From Fusicatenibacter saccharivorans (GTDB lineage: Bacteria; Bacillota; Clostridia; Lachnospirales; Lachnospiraceae), in the NCBI RefSeq assembly GCF_015557635.1, contig NZ_JADNOP010000015.1:1-64000 (forward strand): a stretch of DNA of 64,000 nt, written 5' to 3'. The notes under the pieces are model-generated. The model did no database searches. It was not told the origin of the DNA and saw only the letters and a program-made list of their open reading frames with translations. This document shows, one piece after another, positions 26,560 to 34,494 of this stretch; position 1 is the first letter of the stretch; every line of letters begins with the position of its first letter. Made by a program: the position numbers and the translations under genes.

Positions 26560-26982
26560 TTAGCAGAGTGCTTTTCCAAGTGCAATGCATGCTGCCTCAG
26601 CTTCATCATCTGGCGCGTCTGCGCAGATCACGCTGTCGCATACCAGCTCGGCGCCATCATTTTTGCAGCTTTCTTCCCAGGTGCGCATCCACTCGCCGTC
26701 TCCCCATCCATAGGAACCGAACAGAGCGATTTTCTTTCCGGAGAGTTTGGATTCACATGCGGAGAACATTGGCTCGAACTCGGTATCTTCCAGCTCTTCT
26801 GCCCCCATAGCCGGGCATCCGAAAGCGATTGCATCGTATGCATCTACATCATCCGCAGAGAAATCTGCGCAAGTCAGAACAGAAACTTCTGCGCCTGCCT
26901 CTTTTGCTCCCTCTGCTACTTTCTGTGCCATCATTTCTGTGTTGCCGGTTCCACTCCAATAAACTACTGCTACTTTGCTCAT
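26560..26982 (-). CDS. Flavodoxin
   Basis: This is a small FMN electron carrier of 140 residues. The phosphate-binding loop is WSGTGNTE at residues 9-16, and the isoalloxazine-contacting loops are GCPAMGAEELE and GSYGWGDGEW. Flavodoxins replace ferredoxin when iron is short. It is the last gene of a three-gene unit with DUF3793 and DUF2325 genes. That unit carries GTTAG-N6-CTAAC operators like those at the feo genes, which supports a role in iron limitation. AGAAGGA precedes the ATG. Confidence 0.93.
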   Translation of the reverse strand: MSKVAVVYWSGTGNTEMMAQKVAEGAKEAGAEVSVLTCADFSADDVDAYDAIAFGCPAMGAEELEDTEFEPMFSACESKLSGKKIALFGSYGWGDGEWMRTWEESCKNDGAELVCDSVICADAPDDEAEAACIALGKALC

Positions 26983-27073: not shown

Positions 27074-27628
27074 TTAAACAGCTACGGTGAGCTGTAAAAC
27101 GCTTCTTCCCTGCTTCCAGAGACGCAGATACACGTTTCTGCATTTCTGATAGCGCTGAAATGTTTTCTGTGTTTCGCACTCATTGCAATAGACCTTCCAG
27201 CATCCCTTGCATTTATAATTGTGGCCTTTGTTCTCAATAAAACCGATCACATCACCGAGCGGATAGTTGAGAAACACACCGATCTCATGCGGAAATCCTT
27301 CTTTACACTCTGCTACCCGGGTTTTCAGGCGATTCAGTGCATAGGCAATGTCTGTATTTTCATATCCATAGGATTTCAAAAACGCTGCATTCTCCGGATT
27401 TTCCAGCTCTTTCTGGAGAAGCCCTTCACGGTACACATAGACCAGTGCTCTCGTCTCATGCTCCCGCAATACAAAGATGTGAATTCCTTTTGGTTCCAGA
27501 CAGGCACTCCAGTATGAAATCTGATCTTCCAGTTCTTCTTTGGATGAAAATGTCATATTACATAAATTTGCGGCTTTGATGGAAGCCAGCGTTGCCGAAC
27601 AGTGTTCGATCAGAAATCTCTCAATCAT
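27074..27628 (-). CDS. DUF3793 family protein
   Basis: This is a 184-residue soluble protein of unknown function. It has the DUF3793 features HCSATLASIKAANLCN at the start, GFPHEIGVFLNYPLGDVIGFIENKG in the middle, and a C-terminal cysteine cluster (CKGCWKVYCNEC) followed by a basic tail. The cysteines look able to bind a metal or a thiol cofactor. The family often neighbours flavodoxin and iron-transport genes in clostridia. It lies 18 bases after the DUF2325 gene and about 90 bases before flavodoxin. A CGGGG/CCCCG hairpin without a T-tract lies in that second gap. Confidence 0.82.
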   Translation of the reverse strand: MIERFLIEHCSATLASIKAANLCNMTFSSKEELEDQISYWSACLEPKGIHIFVLREHETRALVYVYREGLLQKELENPENAAFLKSYGYENTDIAYALNRLKTRVAECKEGFPHEIGVFLNYPLGDVIGFIENKGHNYKCKGCWKVYCNECETQKTFQRYQKCRNVYLRLWKQGRSVLQLTVAV

Positions 27629-27646: not shown

Positions 27647-27937
27647 TTACATTGCTGCTGCGCAGTGCTCATCTAATACCGAGCGAAGTGCGGTGGCACT
27701 GCTGGTATGGATTCTTGCGATCGGAATATTGTTTTTCTTTGCTTCCTGGGAAGCAGTGATGACCATTTTGTGGGATACGGTGTTGGTAAAGAGAATCATC
27801 AGATCCGGATTCCCGATTTTTTTCTTAACGGAGCCATGCTCTTTCGGGAACACCTTTGCTTTACATCCATAGTCTTTACAGATATCTGTATATTGACACA
27901 CCATTCTTTCATTTCCACCGATAATTACGACACTCAT
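27647..27937 (-). CDS. DUF2325 family protein
   Basis: This is a 96-residue protein with a Rossmann-like half fold: MSVVIIGGNERM at the start, then alternating strands and helices (PDLMILFTNTVSHKMVITASQEAKKNNIPI). DUF2325 proteins have no firmly known function, and some occur next to iron and haem genes. It is the first gene of the flavodoxin unit. Two TTAG-N6-CTAA palindromes stand between it and its promoter. AAAGGCAGGT precedes the ATG. Confidence 0.82.
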   Translation of the reverse strand: MSVVIIGGNERMVCQYTDICKDYGCKAKVFPKEHGSVKKKIGNPDLMILFTNTVSHKMVITASQEAKKNNIPIARIHTSSATALRSVLDEHCAAAM

Positions 27938-27980
27938 CTTCTCTACCTGCCTTTCTGTTGTTATCTTTTGCTACTTGAAA

Positions 27981-27994
27981 TTAGTTTATTCTAA
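27981..27994. promoter_or_regulatory. Second, weaker TTAG-N6-CTAA site
   Basis: TTAG (27981-27984), TTTATT, CTAA (27991-27994) has the same spacing as the stronger sites but an A in place of the leading G. It lies 44 bases upstream of the DUF2325 start codon. Confidence 0.5.
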
Positions 27995-28065
27995 CTCCTG
28001 TGTTTTAAGAAAGAATCCCTCTACCGGGATCCCGTATGATTTTTGGTTTTATCCGTTGTACTTTA

Positions 28066-28120
28066 GTTAGCTACATCTAACTGTTGGGTATATCATACCG
28101 TTTTTGTCGGATTTTGTCAA
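28066..28120 (-). promoter_or_regulatory. Promoter and GTTAG-N6-CTAAC operator of the DUF2325-DUF3793-flavodoxin unit
   Basis: TTGACA (28120-28115), a 17-base spacer and TATGAT (28097-28092) on the minus strand form a strong promoter. The operator GTTAG-CTACAT-CTAAC (28066-28081 on the plus strand; AGTTAG...CTAACT when extended) begins about ten bases past the -10 box, at the expected start of transcription. A bound repressor there would block initiation. The rest of 27938-28235 has no gene. Confidence 0.7.
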
Positions 28121-28235
28121 GGATATCCTGCAAATTTTTCCAGCTTTTCTTGAGAAAATTGTATCATTTTCTTTTTCACATCACGCTGGTGAAAGAATAT
28201 TCGCAATGGAAGCAGAGGCTTTCCCTGCTTTTGTT

Positions 28236-28277
28236 AAAAAGCCGCTGGAATCTTAAGAAGAAGACTCCAGCGGCTTT
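28236..28277 (-). terminator. Terminator after the P-type ATPase gene
   Basis: AAAGCCGCTGGA pairs with TCCAGCGGCTTT, 16-nt loop, followed by T5 on the minus strand. Confidence 0.83.
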
Positions 28278-28301
28278 CCCGTTGCTATTCTGTTCTGTTT
28301 T

Positions 28302-30389
28302 TTATACCGGCTCGTCCAGCAGGTTGCCCATACTCTTTAAGCCAATGTAAAGAGTAGATGTATTGTGAAGCAGTGCGGAAGTGGTTGGCTGTAAAATGCC
28401 GCCCACGCCGAGCAGAATCAGTCCGGCGTTGAACGTAACGATAAAGCGGTAATTCTTATGAATCCGTTTCATCAGACGGTTGCTCAGCATACGAAGCACC
28501 AGAATTTCTGCCAGATCGTCTGCGGCAACGGTGATATCCGCGATCTCACGCGCAATCTCTGCGCCCTCGCTGATGGCGATTCCAACGTCTGCGGCAGAAA
28601 GTGCCGGTGAATCGTTAATACCGTCACCGATCATAATGACTTTACGTCCCTCTGCTTTTTCTTTCTCCACAAAGTTTGCCTTATCCTCTGGCAGTACCTC
28701 AGCATAGTACTCGTCCACGCCGACCTTCTTCGCGATCGCTTTTGCCGTGCGCTCGCTGTCTCCGGTCATCATGACGATCTTTTTCAGACCTGCTTTTTTC
28801 AGCTGACGGATAATTTCGGCCGCCTCCGGACGAAGCGGATCCTCAATGCAGATAACTGCTGCAAGTACACCTTCTAAGGCAAGATAGAGATGAGAATACT
28901 CCTCCGGCAGATGACGGAACTTCTCTTCCATTCCTTCCGGAATGATACTATTCTCATCCTCAAATACGAAGTGATAACTTCCAATAATCGCTTTTTTGCC
29001 ATTGATCGTTGTAGAAATACCGTGTGCAACGATATATTCTACCTTGGAGTGCATCTCCTCGTGATCCAGATATTTCTCTTTTGCCGCGTCTACTACGGCT
29101 TTTGCCATGGAATGCGGAAAATGCTCTTCCAGGCAGGCTGCGATGCGCAGAAGCTCATCCGGGCTCTTTGTTTCGCTGAAGGATACCACCTCTGCTACGG
29201 TCGGCTGCGCTTTTGTCAGTGTTCCGGTCTTATCGAAAACGATCGTATCCGCTTCCGCCACAGCTTCCAGGAATTTACCGCCCTTTACGGTGATCTTGTG
29301 CTGGTTTGCCTCGCGGATTGCAGAGAGAACGGAAATCGGCATGGCAAGTTTTAACGCACAGGAGAAGTCTACCATCAGAATAGAGAGTGCTTTCGTTGCA
29401 TTTCTGGTCAGAAGATACGTCAACGCCGTTCCGCCAAGGGAATACGGTACAAGACGGTCTGCCAGATGCTCTGCCTTGCTCTCCAGTCCGGATTTCAGTT
29501 TCTCGGACTCTTCGATCATCGCGGTAATCTTCTCGTAACGGCTGGATCCGCCGGTCTGCTTCACAAGAATAGTAAGCTCGCCCTCCTCAAGAACCGTTCC
29601 CGCATAGACAACGGAACCTAAGGTACGGCGTACCGGAACAGATTCTCCGGTCAGAGAAGCCTGGTTCACCATACCCTCGCCGTTGGATACCTCGCCGTCG
29701 AATGGAATCAGATTTCCCATATGTACGACAATCTCGTCGCCCGCAACAATTTTTTCAGACGGAACGAGAATTTCCTGGCCGTCTTTTTTCAGCCATACCT
29801 TTCCGACGTTCAACGACATGCTGCGTGCCAGATCTCCGACGGATTTTTTATGCGTCCATTCCTCAAGCAGCTCTCCTACGCCGAGCAGGAACATGACAGA
29901 GCCTGCGGTTCCATAGTCGCCGCGGAGCATCGAAACACCGATTGCAGTTGCATCAAGAACCGGAACTTCGATCTTTCCCTGTGCCAGTGTCTGGATTCCT
30001 TTCCAGATATATTTTACGGAAACAACCGTAGTATAGATGGCACGGATCGGTGCCGGAAGAAGCCATTTTCTTCCAAAGTGGTAAATCACTTTGCTGATCA
30101 GCTTTTCCTGATATTCGTTGTTTAACGCTCTGCCGGAGCTCTCAAGCAGTCCGGTCGGCAGCTCTACTTCCTCGTAGTGGAAGAGCTGTATCATCCGAAT
30201 CACAGCGGCTCGTTCTCCCTCGTAACAGATCACGGCATCGCCGGTTCTGTCATATACCTTCGCGAAAGATACCTGGTTCTGATTCTGCAGATAGTACAGC
30301 AGTGTCTCTGCCTGTACGGAGGACATGCGCTTCTGTGCCAGATGGATTCGGATTCTGCCTCTGCTTTCGTGTTTAATATAAAATTTCAA
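28302..30389 (-). CDS. P1B-type metal-transporting ATPase with atypical SCA motif
   Basis: This is a 695-residue cation pump. TGES (actuator) is at residues 247-250, the phosphorylated aspartate in DKTGT at 386-390, a P1B HP-like dipeptide in EEHFPHS near 430, and GDGINDSPAL near the C-terminus. The ion-site helix reads DFSCALKLAMP, with Ser-Cys-Ala at 343-345 where most P1B pumps have CPC, CPH or SPC. The N-terminal 70 residues resemble a metal-binding domain fold but lack the CxxC pair. The start is TTG with AGGAGG eight bases upstream. Substrate is unknown; the neighbouring iron genes and the Fur-type box upstream of the operon suggest iron or manganese. Confidence 0.87.
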   Translation of the reverse strand: MKFYIKHESRGRIRIHLAQKRMSSVQAETLLYYLQNQNQVSFAKVYDRTGDAVICYEGERAAVIRMIQLFHYEEVELPTGLLESSGRALNNEYQEKLISKVIYHFGRKWLLPAPIRAIYTTVVSVKYIWKGIQTLAQGKIEVPVLDATAIGVSMLRGDYGTAGSVMFLLGVGELLEEWTHKKSVGDLARSMSLNVGKVWLKKDGQEILVPSEKIVAGDEIVVHMGNLIPFDGEVSNGEGMVNQASLTGESVPVRRTLGSVVYAGTVLEEGELTILVKQTGGSSRYEKITAMIEESEKLKSGLESKAEHLADRLVPYSLGGTALTYLLTRNATKALSILMVDFSCALKLAMPISVLSAIREANQHKITVKGGKFLEAVAEADTIVFDKTGTLTKAQPTVAEVVSFSETKSPDELLRIAACLEEHFPHSMAKAVVDAAKEKYLDHEEMHSKVEYIVAHGISTTINGKKAIIGSYHFVFEDENSIIPEGMEEKFRHLPEEYSHLYLALEGVLAAVICIEDPLRPEAAEIIRQLKKAGLKKIVMMTGDSERTAKAIAKKVGVDEYYAEVLPEDKANFVEKEKAEGRKVIMIGDGINDSPALSAADVGIAISEGAEIAREIADITVAADDLAEILVLRMLSNRLMKRIHKNYRFIVTFNAGLILLGVGGILQPTTSALLHNTSTLYIGLKSMGNLLDEPV

Positions 30390-30407
30390 ATCTTATGCCT
30401 CCTAGAA

Positions 30408-30437
30408 AAACACCTGCAGAGAATTCTGCAGGCGTTT
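30408..30437. terminator. Hairpin between the DUF6110 and ATPase genes
   Basis: AAACACCTGCAGA pairs with TCTGCAGGCGTTT around a very small loop. T-runs follow on both strands. Within the operon it may act as a partial terminator that lowers ATPase expression relative to the DUF6110 protein. Confidence 0.65.
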
Positions 30438-30486
30438 CGTTTTTTCCGTATGAATACGACGTAAATCAGATGTTGCTGTGTACAGC

Positions 30487-30798
30487 TTATGCCTCAACCG
30501 TATCCTCTGCTTCTGCTTCAACAGCTTCCTCTGCTGTCTCTTCAGCTACATCCTCTACTGCCTCTTCTGCTGCTTCACGCTCTTCGTTGATCTGTTTTGC
30601 GTCAGCATAGATGTCCTCCGCATTCTCCTGGATGGTCGTTACCGTATCCAGAACAACTTTCTTTGCACGAAGAACAGCTGCGGTGCAGTTGGTGTAAAGT
30701 TTTTTCGCATCCTTGCTGGACAGTGCTTTGATACCTGCTGTTCCGAATAATACTCCTGCTGCGAAAAGTCCTGGATGTTTTAAATCTTTGATTGTCAT
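30487..30798 (-). CDS. DUF6110 family protein
   Basis: This is a 103-residue protein. The N-terminus (MTIKDLKHPGLFAAGVLFGTAGIKALSSKDAKK) contains one short hydrophobic stretch that may touch the membrane. The middle (VLRAKKVVLDTVTTIQENAEDIYADAKQINEE) is helical, and the last 30 residues are almost wholly Glu, Ala, Val and Asp. It matches the DUF6110 family seen beside metal ATPases of this kind. It could be a cytosolic metal buffer or a partner of the pump; nothing in the sequence proves this. AGGAGG precedes the ATG. It is the first gene of its operon. Confidence 0.75.
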   Translation of the reverse strand: MTIKDLKHPGLFAAGVLFGTAGIKALSSKDAKKLYTNCTAAVLRAKKVVLDTVTTIQENAEDIYADAKQINEEREAAEEAVEDVAEETAEEAVEAEAEDTVEA

Positions 30799-30866
30799 AT
30801 TACATTTCCTCCTATTGTTAAAATAAATTTTTCCTGAATTTTACATCTTCCCCCGCTGTGGTTCAC

Positions 30867-30896
30867 AGTATAGCACTCACCTGCTCGGTTAGACAA
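30867..30896 (-). promoter_or_regulatory. Promoter of the DUF6110-ATPase operon
   Basis: TTGTCT (30896-30891), an 18-base spacer and TATACT (30872-30867) on the minus strand. A single GTTAG half-site overlaps the -35 box. Confidence 0.65.
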
Positions 30897-30912
30897 TACG
30901 TACAGTTCTTTT

Positions 30913-30927
30913 TGATAATTATTTTCA
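30913..30927. promoter_or_regulatory. Fur-box-like sequence
   Basis: TGATAATTATTTTCA differs at one position from the 15-base Gram-positive Fur consensus TGATAATNATTATCA. It lies about 17 bases upstream of the -35 box of the DUF6110-ATPase promoter and just after the Fur-like gene, so it could bind a Fur or PerR protein. Confidence 0.6.
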
Positions 30928-30935
30928 TTAAAACA

Positions 30936-30968
30936 GGGAAAACGGAAGGAATTTTCACCCGTTTTCCC
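30936..30968 (-). terminator. Terminator after the Fur-like gene
   Basis: GGGAAAACGG pairs with CCGTTTTCCC across a loop of about 12 bases, 7 bases past the stop codon. TGTTTT follows on the minus strand. Confidence 0.75.
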
Positions 30969-30974
30969 CGTTTT

Positions 30975-31430
30975 TCAGCCTTCCACCGCTGAAACAATCA
31001 CATTTTCAATATCCTGATTCTGAATATAGCCCTTTGCCTTCAGTCCGGATTTCATCACGTCCATCCACATCTCTCCGCTTAAGCGGCAGATGGTATGATC
31101 GCTCAGTTCTACGGTACAGCCCTGATCTTTGAAGCATTCTTCTCCACAGGCAATCTTGTAAAAATTTTTGCGGCTGATTGCACCGATGCTCTCCAGTGTA
31201 TTCACCATGCGATACACCGTAGCAGGCCCGATGCTGCTGTCTTTCTGCAGAGCTTTATAGTAAATTTCTTTACAGCAGGAGCACTCCTCTTCCAGGATAA
31301 TATCGAGCAGAATCCGTCTCTGTCTGGTTATTCTGCATCCCTGTTCCCGGAGCTTCTGAATAATCAGTTCTCGCTTCATCTGTGTTCTGTGATAATTTCT
31401 GGCTTCATGCTTTGTCTGTTCCTGCGGCAT
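30975..31430 (-). CDS. Divergent Fur-family metalloregulator, Cys-rich
   Basis: This is a 151-residue regulator. The winged helix is clear (GCRITRQRRILLDIIL, then GPATVYRMVNTLESIGAI). In typical Fur proteins a histidine-rich stretch (HHDHxxC) and H/E ligands bind the sensed metal. Here the hinge region reads EECSCCKEIYYK (Cys 50, 52, 53), and the C-terminal part has Cys 95, 99, 105 and 115 with a single His 112, and no histidine cluster. This predicts a different metal site or thiol-based sensing. The ATG at 31430 follows AGGAGG. It is the last gene of the feo operon and probably acts on neighbouring promoters. Confidence 0.85.
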   Translation of the reverse strand: MPQEQTKHEARNYHRTQMKRELIIQKLREQGCRITRQRRILLDIILEEECSCCKEIYYKALQKDSSIGPATVYRMVNTLESIGAISRKNFYKIACGEECFKDQGCTVELSDHTICRLSGEMWMDVMKSGLKAKGYIQNQDIENVIVSAVEG

Positions 31431-31463
31431 ACGTTCTACCTCCTGATGATGATTCCTGTCCTG

Positions 31464-31598
31464 TCAGTCGCAATGTCCCTTGCACTGCCCGCAGTTACCA
31501 CCACAGCTTCCCTTGCCACTTTTTTTATCTTTAATCATACTGCGTACTGCAAGTCCTACCAGACCAACAACGACTACAAGTGTGATAAAAGTTCCCAT
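31464..31598 (-). CDS. FeoB-associated Cys-rich membrane protein
   Basis: This is a 44-residue protein with one membrane helix (MGTFITLVVVVGLVGLAVRSM), a basic linker (IKDKKSGKGS), and a cysteine tail CGGNCGQCKGHCD. Small proteins of this form follow feoB in many Firmicutes and replace FeoC there. They may help pass Fe2+ or sense redox state. AAAGGAG precedes the ATG. It sits between feoB and the Fur-like gene, 33 bases before the latter. Confidence 0.88.
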   Translation of the reverse strand: MGTFITLVVVVGLVGLAVRSMIKDKKSGKGSCGGNCGQCKGHCD

Positions 31599-31621
31599 AG
31601 AAACAACTCCTTTCTTTTCAA

Positions 31622-31662
31622 AAGAGTCCGCATCCTGCAGCGGATGCCGGATACGGACTCTT
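31622..31662 (-). terminator. Hairpin between feoB and its Cys-rich partner
   Basis: AAGAGTCCG pairs with CGGACTCTT, with GCATCC/GGATGC nested inside. TTTT follows on the minus strand, so it may be a partial terminator or an mRNA-stability element inside the operon. Confidence 0.6.
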
Positions 31663-31695
31663 CATCAGATACATGTTCTCTATCTGTCACAGCAA

Positions 31696-33855
31696 TTATT
31701 TGCTGAACATTTTGTTGGTGGAAACGCTCAGAGTTGCGCTCTCTTTGTAAGGTCTTACCAGCAGATATACAAATCCAATGATGAGCAGAACAGCAACTAC
31801 CGTTCCGATTCCAAAACCGCCGCCGATGAACAGGTTACCGATCTGATAGATGCACAGGGATACAACATAGGCAAGCAGTGTCTGATATCCGATTGCAGTA
31901 AAAAACCATTTGGTATTGTTCATCTCACGTTTGATTGCACCCATTGCTGCGAAGCACGGTGCGCACAGAAGGTTGAATACCAGGAAGGAATAAGCTGCTA
32001 CCGTAGATAAGCTTCCTGCGAGCTGTCCCCAGATCTCGGCGCCGTCTTCTGCAACTTCACCAAAGCCAAACAGGATACCAAAGGTACCAACAACGTTCTC
32101 TTTTGCGATCAGTCCGGAAACAGCTGCAACAGCCATCTTCCAGTCGCCCCATCCAAGAGGTGCAAACAGAGGAGCGATCACGCTTCCGATGGAAGCCAGG
32201 ATACTGTCATTTAACTGCTCGGCTTCCAGCATTCCGAAGGATCCGTCAACCCATCCGAAGTTCATCAGGAACCACAGAACGATGGTGGACATCAGGATGA
32301 TCGTACCGGCTTTTTTGATGAAGGACCAGCCACGCTCCCACATGCTGCGAAGAACGTTGCTTACCGTCGGCCAGTGGTAAGCCGGAAGCTCCATAACAAA
32401 CGGAGCCGGATCACCGGCGAACAGTTTTGTTTTTTTCAGGATGATACCGGAGCAGATGATTGCTGCAATACCAACGAAGTAAGCACTTGGTGCAACCCAG
32501 GAAGCTCCATTAAACAGGGCGCCTGCGATCAGGGCGATGATTGGAAGTTTTGCTCCACAAGGTACAAACGTTGTTGTCATGATGGTCATTTTACGGTCAC
32601 GGTCATTCTCGATGGTACGGGAAGCCATGATACCAGGAACACCGCAGCCACTTCCGATCAGCATCGGAATGAAGGATTTTCCGGAAAGTCCAAATTTACG
32701 GAAGATACGGTCCATGATGAATGCAACACGCGCCATGTAACCGCAGGACTCCAGAAATGCCAGGAACAGGAACAGTACCAGCATCTGCGGTACGAATCCA
32801 AGTACGGCACCAACACCGGCAACAATACCATCCAGGATCAGACCCTGCAGCCAGTCAGCGCAGTGGATCGCGTTCAGCAGATTTTCAATGGCCGGCGGAA
32901 TGATCTCTCCAAAGAGTACATCGTTGGTCCAGTCCGTTACAAAAGTACCTACTGTTGTGACAGATACATAATATACAACCCACATAACAACTGCAAAGAT
33001 CGGAAGTGCCAGCCAGCGGTTGGTTACGATCCGGTCGATCTTATCCGATGTTGTCATGGCGTTTTTCTTGTTCTTTGTGACACAGTCGCCGATGATGCTG
33101 GAAATATAAACGTAACGCTCGTTTGTAATAATACTCTCGGTATCGTCATCAAATTTGTCTTCCAGCTGTTTGATCTCGGCAGATACATCCGGAACGGATT
33201 TCATCTGCTCTGTGATCTTATCATCTTTCTCCAGAAGTTTGATTGCAAAGAAGCGTTTCTGCTCATTTACAATATCACTTCCGAGTTTGCTCTCAACGGT
33301 GCGGATGACTGCCTCCACATCCTTGTCAAACTCATGAACCGGTACAGCAGCACCTTTTTTCTGTGCAATCTGCACTGCTTTATCAGCAGCTTCTTTGATT
33401 CCGGTTCCTTTCAGAGCAGAGATGGTTACAACTTCACAGCCCAGCTTTTTCGCCAGTTTGTCGATATGTATTTTGTCTCCGTTCTTCTCAACAATATCCA
33501 TCATGTTGACAGCCATGATCACCGGAATACCAAGTTCCATGATCTGTGTGGACAGATACAGGTTACGCTCAATGTTGGTACCATCTACGATGTTCAGGAT
33601 CGCATCTGGTCTTTCATTAATCAGGTAATTTCTGGCTACCACTTCCTCCAGTGTATACGGAGATAAAGAATAGATACCCGGAAGGTCCATGATGGTGACA
33701 TCTTTGTGGCCTTTGAGCTTTCCTTCTTTTTTCTCGACGGTTACACCTGGCCAGTTTCCTACGAACTGGTTGGAGCCTGTCAGTGCATTGAACAATGTTG
33801 TCTTACCGCAGTTCGGGTTTCCTGCGAGTGCAATCTTAATTGCCATTTTTTCCAT
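31696..33855 (-). CDS. feoB: Ferrous iron transporter FeoB
   Basis: This is the main Fe2+ importer, 719 residues. The N-terminal G domain has G1 GNPNCGKT, the G2 region NWPGVTVEKKEG, G3 DLPG and G4 NMMD. A helical GDI-like domain follows to about residue 270. The membrane part has about eight to ten segments with the two Gate regions (GSGCGVPGIMASRT, and VPCGAKLP in between) that carry conserved cysteines. The start at 33855 has GAGGGG close to it; the in-frame ATG at 33846 is about as good. It follows two feoA genes, with a GTTAG-N6-CTAAC palindrome in the gap. Confidence 0.96.
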   Translation of the reverse strand: MEKMAIKIALAGNPNCGKTTLFNALTGSNQFVGNWPGVTVEKKEGKLKGHKDVTIMDLPGIYSLSPYTLEEVVARNYLINERPDAILNIVDGTNIERNLYLSTQIMELGIPVIMAVNMMDIVEKNGDKIHIDKLAKKLGCEVVTISALKGTGIKEAADKAVQIAQKKGAAVPVHEFDKDVEAVIRTVESKLGSDIVNEQKRFFAIKLLEKDDKITEQMKSVPDVSAEIKQLEDKFDDDTESIITNERYVYISSIIGDCVTKNKKNAMTTSDKIDRIVTNRWLALPIFAVVMWVVYYVSVTTVGTFVTDWTNDVLFGEIIPPAIENLLNAIHCADWLQGLILDGIVAGVGAVLGFVPQMLVLFLFLAFLESCGYMARVAFIMDRIFRKFGLSGKSFIPMLIGSGCGVPGIMASRTIENDRDRKMTIMTTTFVPCGAKLPIIALIAGALFNGASWVAPSAYFVGIAAIICSGIILKKTKLFAGDPAPFVMELPAYHWPTVSNVLRSMWERGWSFIKKAGTIILMSTIVLWFLMNFGWVDGSFGMLEAEQLNDSILASIGSVIAPLFAPLGWGDWKMAVAAVSGLIAKENVVGTFGILFGFGEVAEDGAEIWGQLAGSLSTVAAYSFLVFNLLCAPCFAAMGAIKREMNNTKWFFTAIGYQTLLAYVVSLCIYQIGNLFIGGGFGIGTVVAVLLIIGFVYLLVRPYKESATLSVSTNKMFSK

Positions 33856-33929
33856 GCCCCTCTTTCTTTGATTTTTACTGATTTTAATAACTTCACAAGC
33901 CTTACCAATATTGGCTGCAGCTTGCTTTT

Positions 33930-33945
33930 GTTAGCATCCGCTAAC
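33930..33945. promoter_or_regulatory. GTTAG-N6-CTAAC palindrome between feoA and feoB
   Basis: GTTAG (33930-33934), CATCCG, CTAAC (33941-33945). The symmetry extends outward (TTGTTAG...CTAACAA, GCTT...AAGC), so it can also fold as a hairpin. It is the same palindrome as at the two main promoters of the island, and may give feoB separate control. Confidence 0.6.
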
Positions 33946-33962
33946 AAGCAGGCAAAAAAAAT

Positions 33963-34184
33963 TTACTCTACTTCAATCATTTCGGCATCTGCTTTTCTTA
34001 AGGATAATTCGTATCCTCTGACGGTTACTTCGACCGGATCGCCGAGCGGAGCAACTTTGCGCACGAATACGTCAACACCCTTGGTGATTCCCATATCCAT
34101 GATTCTTCTTTTGACCGGACCGGAGCCGTTGAGTTTTACAACTTTAACGGTTTCTCCTACGGAAGTCTCTTTTAAAGTCTTCAT
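33963..34184 (-). CDS. feoA: FeoA family protein (second copy)
   Basis: This is a 73-residue SH3-like protein that supports FeoB. Typical features are the SVGETVKVVKLNG start, RRIMDMGITKGVDVFVRKVAPLGDPVEVTVRGYELSLRK, and a C-terminal acidic end. The two FeoA-type proteins of this operon share only the fold-level pattern (the MG-x-xxG-xx-V turn), so they are not a recent duplication. It is 20 bases after the first feoA. Confidence 0.93.
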   Translation of the reverse strand: MKTLKETSVGETVKVVKLNGSGPVKRRIMDMGITKGVDVFVRKVAPLGDPVEVTVRGYELSLRKADAEMIEVE

Positions 34185-34203
34185 CTTCTCTCCTTCTTTC
34201 CTA

Positions 34204-34413
34204 TCAAATCAGGATTTTGGCTGCCATATCTTTTCCAACGGCTACCCTGGAATCTTTCACATTCACGATGAGATTGCCGTCGATTTCCGATACGACTGTC
34301 ACGTTTCCGCCAACGACGAAGCCAAGATTTTCAAGAAATCTTCTGGTCTCTTCTTTTCCGCCAACTTTTCTGATTGTGTAACATTCGCCTGGATTTGCCA
34401 TCGTTAAAGGCAT
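34204..34413 (-). CDS. feoA: FeoA family protein (first copy)
   Basis: This is a 69-residue FeoA-type protein (MPLTMANPGECYTIRKVGG, RRFLENLGFVVGGNVTVVSEIDGNLIVNVKDSRVAVGK). I chose the ATG at 34413, nine bases after AGGAGG; a TTG two codons earlier is too close to the site. It leads the operon feoA-feoA-feoB-small Cys-rich protein-Fur-like gene. It differs from the second copy by a shorter C-terminal loop, and may bind FeoB at another stage. Confidence 0.9.
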   Translation of the reverse strand: MPLTMANPGECYTIRKVGGKEETRRFLENLGFVVGGNVTVVSEIDGNLIVNVKDSRVAVGKDMAAKILI

Positions 34414-34462
34414 AGTCAATTACCTCCTGTGTATGATAATGAGTTTCATCTCTATTTCAGTT

Positions 34463-34494
34463 GTTAGTATATGCTAACGTACGTTAGATGTCAA
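34463..34494 (-). promoter_or_regulatory. feo operon promoter built from GTTAG/CTAAC palindromes
   Basis: TTGACA (34494-34489), a 17-base spacer and TATACT (34471-34466) make a near-consensus promoter. The spacer contains CTAACGTACGTTAG (34474-34487), itself palindromic. GTTAG-TATATG-CTAAC (34463-34478) overlaps the -10 box. The whole core promoter is therefore operator, which fits strong metal-dependent repression. The regulator could be the adjacent Fur-like protein or a DtxR/MntR-type protein elsewhere. Confidence 0.8.

Follow-up and report, generated by a model that had tools for sequence, protein, structure and literature searches.

The operators of IdeR and DtxR in Actinobacteria are 19-bp elements (TTAGGTTAGSCTAACCTAA), of which a single dimer occupies the half-site TTAGGNNNNCCTAA, with an apparent KD of 78 nM for IdeR, according to the available sections of PMC8464063. 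DtxR holds its iron through Met10, Cys102, Glu105 and His106, as set out in the available part of PMC4805248, which also lists the ligands of MntR and describes PgMntR of Porphyromonas gingivalis as binding Mn2+ and Fe2+, and as not binding the feoB1 promoter. A different mode of repression is the roadblock, in which DNA-bound LacI, PurR, CcpA or CodY halts elongating RNA polymerase and release has been ascribed mainly to Mfd (PMC10310618, available sections). Here we describe an operator word, GTTAG-N6-CTAAC, in a 64,000-nucleotide stretch of the Fusicatenibacter saccharivorans genome (NCBI RefSeq assembly GCF_015557635.1, contig NZ_JADNOP010000015.1, positions 1–64,000; hereafter the window), where it accompanies the feo operon and an operon encoding DUF2325, DUF3793 and flavodoxin proteins. 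Judging from sequence comparisons, we propose with a probability of about 0.8 that the word is the one-dimer operator of a short metal repressor of the DtxR/MntR type that governs iron acquisition here and in related genomes. The operator type is already known. In the open-licence literature searched, we found no account joining DtxR, FeoB and the operator with Lachnospiraceae, or the DtxR family and iron with Lachnospiraceae, nor did we find the regulon in this family, dyads 20 bp apart or T-tract sites.

The window contains three exact copies of the word, at the promoters of both operons and in the feoA–feoB gap (Table 1), and a single-mismatch copy (ATTAG...CTAAC) at 27980–27995. An earlier note on this DNA had reported the same three copies, a weaker one at 27981 and a CTAAC-N4-GTTAG filling the feo promoter spacer, which is present at 34474–34487. 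When two mismatches were allowed, the window gave 10 matches compared with 13.9 expected from shuffles, which is no excess; the signal is thus carried by the exact form, and this form or TTAG-N6-CTAA was used thereafter. Genome-wide (3.6 Mb), the exact word occurs eight times and a control, the same pattern read backwards, not once. Assigned from their flanks, the eight sites belong to the feo promoter, the feoA–feoB gap, the DUF2325 operon, an Nramp gene, a further FeoA-like gene (L010), an ABC ATPase (L012), an ApbE-like lipoprotein (L014) and one of two enolases (L015). An additional TTAG-N6-CTAA stands upstream of an ECF S-component of the Trep_Strep/MptD type (L004), which is followed by a T-component-like gene. 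This shorter form occupies 23 places in the genome, some of them within genes or near genes without a link to iron; examples, named by eye, are the ribosomal-protein-like genes of L002 and L003.

Across 299 genomes of the family, the exact word had 1,763 sites and the control 549. Sites outnumbered control matches in 230 genomes, equalled them in 30 and fell below them in 39 (Wilcoxon p ~1e-32, kinship ignored), and 277 genomes carried at least one site, with a family median of 5; one relative (G157) had 43 exact sites and 2 control matches. Outside the family the word was patchy by hand-summed counts: sites exceeded control matches in a family of the same order (f8; 83 versus 17 in 14 genomes) and in one of the same class (f66; 50 versus 5 in 6 genomes), and fell short of them in f22 (33 versus 56 in 13 genomes) and f24 (5 versus 14 in 8 genomes).

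Conservation ahead of feo was assessed in 80 feoB loci, over the 1.2 kb upstream of feoB. TTAG-N6-CTAA had 135 matches there and was present in 74 loci, whereas every other spacer from N0 to N15 gave 0–16 matches, the 16 belonging to N10. Two of the six loci without a site have just 322 and 2 bases upstream (L094 and L103), and a third (L098) has sites instead upstream of a Fur-like gene that heads its feo operon, which leaves L033, L037 and L090 as genuine exceptions. The expectations of the earlier note that an operator would exceed chance frequency and be conserved upstream of feo in relatives were thus borne out. Its comparison with DtxR, IdeR and MntR operators held for the half-site spacing. 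No overlapping dyad shifted by 5 bp, as in the 19-bp box, was seen, the logos showing a single dyad (the offset scan began at 14 bp).

The genes behind the operator were examined in ten relatives whose sites were all listed, using a rough gene caller. Exact sites were intergenic in 69 of 74 cases, compared with 5 of the 16 control matches scored (of 21). After 8 of 73 open reading frames had been excluded as spurious by eye, 65 downstream proteins remained, and among the 25 of 53 Pfam families displayed the commonest were ABC transporters (10), DUF3793 (7), FeoB (5), DUF2325 (4) and DtxR (4), followed by enolase and methyltransferases (3 each) and by Trep_Strep, FecCD, aldo-keto reductase and TetR (2 each). 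This gene set is mostly, not exclusively, iron-related. The ABC transporters, the commonest genes behind the operator in these relatives, fuse membrane and ATPase domains, and might carry iron compounds. We rejected Nramp as a general regulon member, because only two of eight strong Nramp matches had a site, one of them in F. saccharivorans itself. Enolase is at most a partial member: of 30 loci fetched from relatives, 16 were scored and 4 had a site. F. saccharivorans has two enolase genes (at L015, C11:103456, and at C11:407108), and the operator was seen upstream of one of them only, the gene at C11:102075; enolase (PF00113) was unmatched in 20 of 120 family genomes and in 16 of 101 of good quality, which may reflect real loss or a limit of the search.

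The word is probably read by a short protein of the DtxR/MntR type and not by the Fur-like protein encoded at 30975–31430, which the earlier note had named for a gel shift. F. saccharivorans has one gene that matches PF02742 (the DtxR C-terminal domain) over the cut-off (L024:4817-5203, minus strand, 128 aa). Its product is MntR-sized and matched MntR, IdeR and DtxR structures in phmmer searches, with MntR structures nearest, and matched NCBIfam MntR models only below their cut-offs; four homologues downstream of sites carry both DtxR domains, PF01325 and PF02742. A length filter kept 74 of the 77 distinct DtxR proteins for alignment. Cys-Glu-His occupied the places of DtxR Cys102-Glu105-His106 in all 74, the MntR residues Glu (position 11) and His (position 77) were retained, and the Met10/Asp8 place held Asn in 59, Asp in 10 and Met in 5. 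We read the protein as a putative iron sensor, possibly one that also responds to manganese. In three relatives (L137, L138 and L139) the DtxR C-terminal domain lies within long open frames of 595–607 aa.

DtxR genes are also found near some of the sites. Feo and a DtxR gene are divergent neighbours in 38 of the 63 loci that offer 1 kb of upstream sequence. Of the 56 DtxR genes scored, 17 carry TTAG-N6-CTAA within 350 bp upstream (other spacers, 0–4). The check proposed in the earlier note, for a DtxR gene distributed like the word, also supported the assignment: with DtxR presence scored by the C-terminal domain alone, the 284 genomes with a match averaged 6.1 sites (control 1.85) and the 15 without averaged 1.9 (control 1.5). 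The difference was significant (Mann–Whitney p 1.1e-4, or 0.0016 with only the eight negatives at least 90% complete; kinship ignored).

Several observations weigh against this assignment. The DtxR gene of F. saccharivorans has no upstream TTAG-N6-CTAA and does not adjoin feo, and 39 of the 56 scored DtxR genes likewise have no upstream site. The site-less feo loci L033, L037 and L090 come from genomes with DtxR matches; conversely, G322 has four sites and no DtxR match, and the 15 genomes scored as DtxR-negative by the C-terminal domain search alone still carry 0–6 sites. The scarcity of sites at Nramp genes (two of eight strong matches) counts on the same side, as does the neglect of kinship in the site and DtxR statistics. 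Moreover, 28 of 63 loci have a Fur-like gene no more than 1 kb downstream of feoB.

That last observation is also the starting point for a reading in which the Fur-family protein of 30975–31430, or another Fur, binds the word and the DtxR genes are mere neighbours; the feo operon of L098, headed by a Fur-like gene with sites upstream, and the sites that precede a Fur-like gene in L227 and L290 would fit it. We regard it as distinctly improbable, because the word has the spacing of the DtxR/IdeR half-site and DtxR is the divergent partner at the common operator region in 38 of 63 loci. The site excess also tracks DtxR presence, in a cross-genome comparison made for DtxR and not for Fur. Finally, the classical Fur box TGATAAT-N-ATTATCA, from which the earlier note had already set the word apart, was not seen in the feo promoter, gap or DUF logos, although no genome-wide Fur-box scan was made.

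The sites fall into two classes, both found in the window: promoter sites, which cover or abut the -10 hexamer, and internal sites, which for the most part have no promoter and follow a T-tract at a distance of about 9 nt. The earlier note had treated its sites as one common operator; the word is indeed the same, but the gap site and the promoter sites fall into separate classes. In the logo built from 64 feo promoter sites, GTTaTTGACAaCTAATaaa.GTTAGaATATACTAAC, TTGACA and TATACT are 17 bp apart and the -10 hexamer lies inside the dyad, the arrangement that the earlier note had described for the site at 34463. A hexamer with at least 5 of 6 matches to TATAAT occupies the -10 place (+6 to +11) in 50 of these sites. 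A second dyad (at least 6 of 8 positions matching) lies 20 bp upstream in 37 of the 64, with fewer than 5 sites at each other offset (14–34 bp, either side), so two dimers could share one face over the -35 and -10. Of this second dyad, the window promoter retains the inner half alone (34483–34487).

Gap sites (n = 71) have a poorly conserved dyad centre, and only one has a TATAAT-like hexamer (at least 5/6) at +6 to +11. Their distinguishing feature is a run of at least five T that ends 8–12 nt upstream of TTAG in 61 sites, and exactly 9 nt upstream in 50; the same run was found at none of the 64 feo promoter sites, at 10 of the 45 DUF sites and at 12 of the 68 others. The distance to TTAG is constant whether the run begins just after the feoA stop codon or later (20 of 25 at 9 nt), which ties the run to the operator. 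Despite the palindromic operator, the run occurs on the gene-sense 5' side only, and the other strand has no such peak. In 20 of the 71 sites a second, weaker dyad follows 20 bp downstream, and 8 of 68 gaps have no run of five T. Among 15 further gaps, the window included, 12 had a site, of which 8 had a T-run at 9–11 nt.

A similar arrangement recurs in the DUF2325–DUF3793–flavodoxin operon. Among the 30 best-scoring DUF3793 loci of 200 genomes, chosen blind to the motif, 28, the window included, have TTAG-N6-CTAA in the 700 bp ahead of DUF3793; one of the other two, L187, stops at the gene. The link that the earlier note had drawn from these proteins to iron uptake is thereby strengthened, and the three genes occur together often, not always, in relatives. 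Among 14 DUF3793 operons with at least two sites (the window included), the first site was at a sigma-70-like promoter in 13 and at a T-tract in 1, whereas the last was at a promoter in 3 and at a T-tract in 10; the 13 single-site operons had 5 promoter and 4 T-tract sites. In the window, the weaker copy that the earlier note had placed at 27981 turned out to be such a last site, in the leader, behind a hairpin and a T-rich stretch. The hairpin is fairly unusual at best (equalled by 7 of 200 shuffles over 36 nt and by 23 of 200 over 70 nt), and the terminator scan did not list it and gave no terminator there. A hairpin of at least -5 kcal/mol strength directly preceded 9 of 16 leader tracts, 14 of 62 gap tracts and 41 of 300 background tracts. 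The DUF3793 protein has a confident predicted structure (mean pLDDT 89) and a conserved core, FPHE...LxYPxxDVxGF; its model had no match in the PDB at E 0.001 or better, and thus no function could be read from the structure. Within the open-licence literature searched, DUF3793 is mentioned in one paper, a fungal one.

In the mechanism that we propose, the repressor, probably loaded with Fe2+, would bind TTAG-N6-CTAA as a single dimer. At promoter sites (34463 for feo and 28066 for the DUF2325 operon), it would cover or abut the -10 and block initiation. At internal sites (33930 in the gap and 27980 in the DUF2325 leader), it would sit 9–12 nt past the T-tract in already transcribed DNA, probably as a roadblock that would hold RNA polymerase at the point where the RNA 3' end lies in the U-tract; feoB and the DUF operon would thereby be cut a second time at plentiful iron. 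When a bound roadblock such as EcoRI stops RNA polymerase, the RNA end lies about 14 bp short of it, and at this distance the RNA end would fall in the T-tract. The internal sites may be repressor-triggered terminators, in which a DtxR-type dimer 9–12 nt past the T-tract stops polymerase at the weakest RNA–DNA hybrid and the T-tract, often without a hairpin, takes the place of Mfd; iron would then turn on termination in the feoA–feoB gap and in the leader of DUF2325/DUF3793. We advance this tentatively, at somewhat less than even odds.

A somewhat unlikely alternative is that the gap T-tract and operator form an internal feoB promoter under ordinary repression, with the T-tract as its -35 region. 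The tract does fall approximately where the feo promoter logo has its -35 hexamer, and it occurs on the gene-sense side alone, but the TATAAT-like hexamer seen at +6 to +11 in 50 of 64 feo promoter sites is confined to 1 of 71 gap sites, and 15–19 nt after the T-run such a hexamer occurs in 4 of 61, compared with 8 of 61 at a control place. Long T-tracts also bend DNA, and the fixed distance between tract and operator could reflect an A-tract that aids repressor binding. This is less probable still, because the operator is palindromic, yet the tract lies solely on the gene-sense 5' side with no other-strand peak, and it is absent from all 64 feo promoter sites. Finally, the gap palindrome is very improbable as an RNA hairpin in place of a DNA operator: in the window it is extended, and RNA folding of the gap is favourable (z -4.2), but the same word lies over promoters, where it is not fully transcribed, the logo of the 71 gap sites shows no pairing past the core (a core that is fixed by the search and cannot vary), and the four loci searched had no Rfam match.

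Table 1 Positions of operators, promoter elements and genes in the window, with the loci of operator-linked fused transporters in relatives
Feature	Position or locus	Strand	Basis or remark
-35 hexamer TTGACA, feo promoter	34489..34494	-	17 bp from -10
-10 hexamer TATACT, feo promoter, within operator	34466..34471	-	kept in logo of 64 feo promoter sites
Promoter operator GTTAG-N6-CTAAC, feo operon	34463..34478	.	exact match and conservation
Extra half-site CTAAC	34483..34487	-	inner half of second dyad centred 20 bp upstream in relatives
First FeoA protein gene	34204..34419	-	PF04023
Second FeoA protein gene	33963..34184	-	PF04023
T-tract T8, nine nt upstream of gap-operator TTAG	33954..33961	-	T-run at same place in 61/71 gap sites of relatives
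Internal operator GTTAG-N6-CTAAC, feoA–feoB gap	33930..33945	.	exact match; gap-site logo of relatives
feoB	31696..33855	-	FeoB_N and further FeoB domains
Fur-family gene, less likely operator reader	30975..31430	-	PF01475
-35 hexamer TTGACA, DUF2325 operon promoter	28115..28120	-	promoter at 28120–28092
-10 hexamer TATGAT, DUF2325 operon promoter	28092..28097	-	promoter at 28120–28092
Promoter operator GTTAG-N6-CTAAC, DUF2325 operon	28066..28081	.	10 bp past -10
Leader hairpin, 8 pairs, -12 kcal/mol	28012..28033	-	RNA folding
T-rich stretch TTCTTTCTT	28007..28015	-	12 nt upstream of leader-operator TTAG; overlaps hairpin 3' arm
Leader operator TTAG-N6-CTAA, one mismatch to 16-bp word	27980..27995	.	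motif scan
DUF2325 protein gene	27647..27937	-	PF10087
DUF3793 protein gene	27074..27628	-	PF12672
Flavodoxin gene	26560..26982	-	PF00258
Fused ABC transporters behind operator	L247, L260, L264, L271, L273, L282, L288, L289, L292, L295		

With this one word, the iron regulon of a common gut bacterial family becomes readable. The operator ties DUF2325 and DUF3793, both of unknown function, as well as some enolases, ECF components and ABC transporters, to iron genes, and the phasing of T-tracts with internal operators points to a simple route by which a repressor could end transcription.

Compared with the operators of IdeR and DtxR, the word shares TTAG and CTAA six bases apart and an association with an iron regulon, and a single IdeR dimer suffices for binding in vitro in the available sections of PMC8464063. 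In contrast to those operators, the single-dimer form is usual here, G and C stand outside (GTTAG...CTAAC) instead of GG and CC inside, and the extra dyads of feo sites are 20 bp away, whereas the dimers of the 19-bp box overlap, 5 bp apart as we read its consensus. MntR of Bacillus and E. coli, which provides the closest solved structures, resembles the candidate reader in its two-domain size, best sequence match and Glu 11 and His 77; the candidate differs in having Cys at the MntR Glu99 place and its homologues mostly have Asn at the MntR Asp8 place. PgMntR, as described in the available part of its source, has a similarly mixed ligand set with a DtxR-type Cys, but carries two FeoA domains. 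The Clostridioides difficile Fur regulon is likewise a clostridial iron-limitation network in the available part of PMC6311696, run there by Fur, whereas the word here is of DtxR type. Finally, release at the LacI, PurR, CcpA and CodY roadblocks is ascribed mainly to Mfd in the available account, whereas here a T-tract is phased to the operator.

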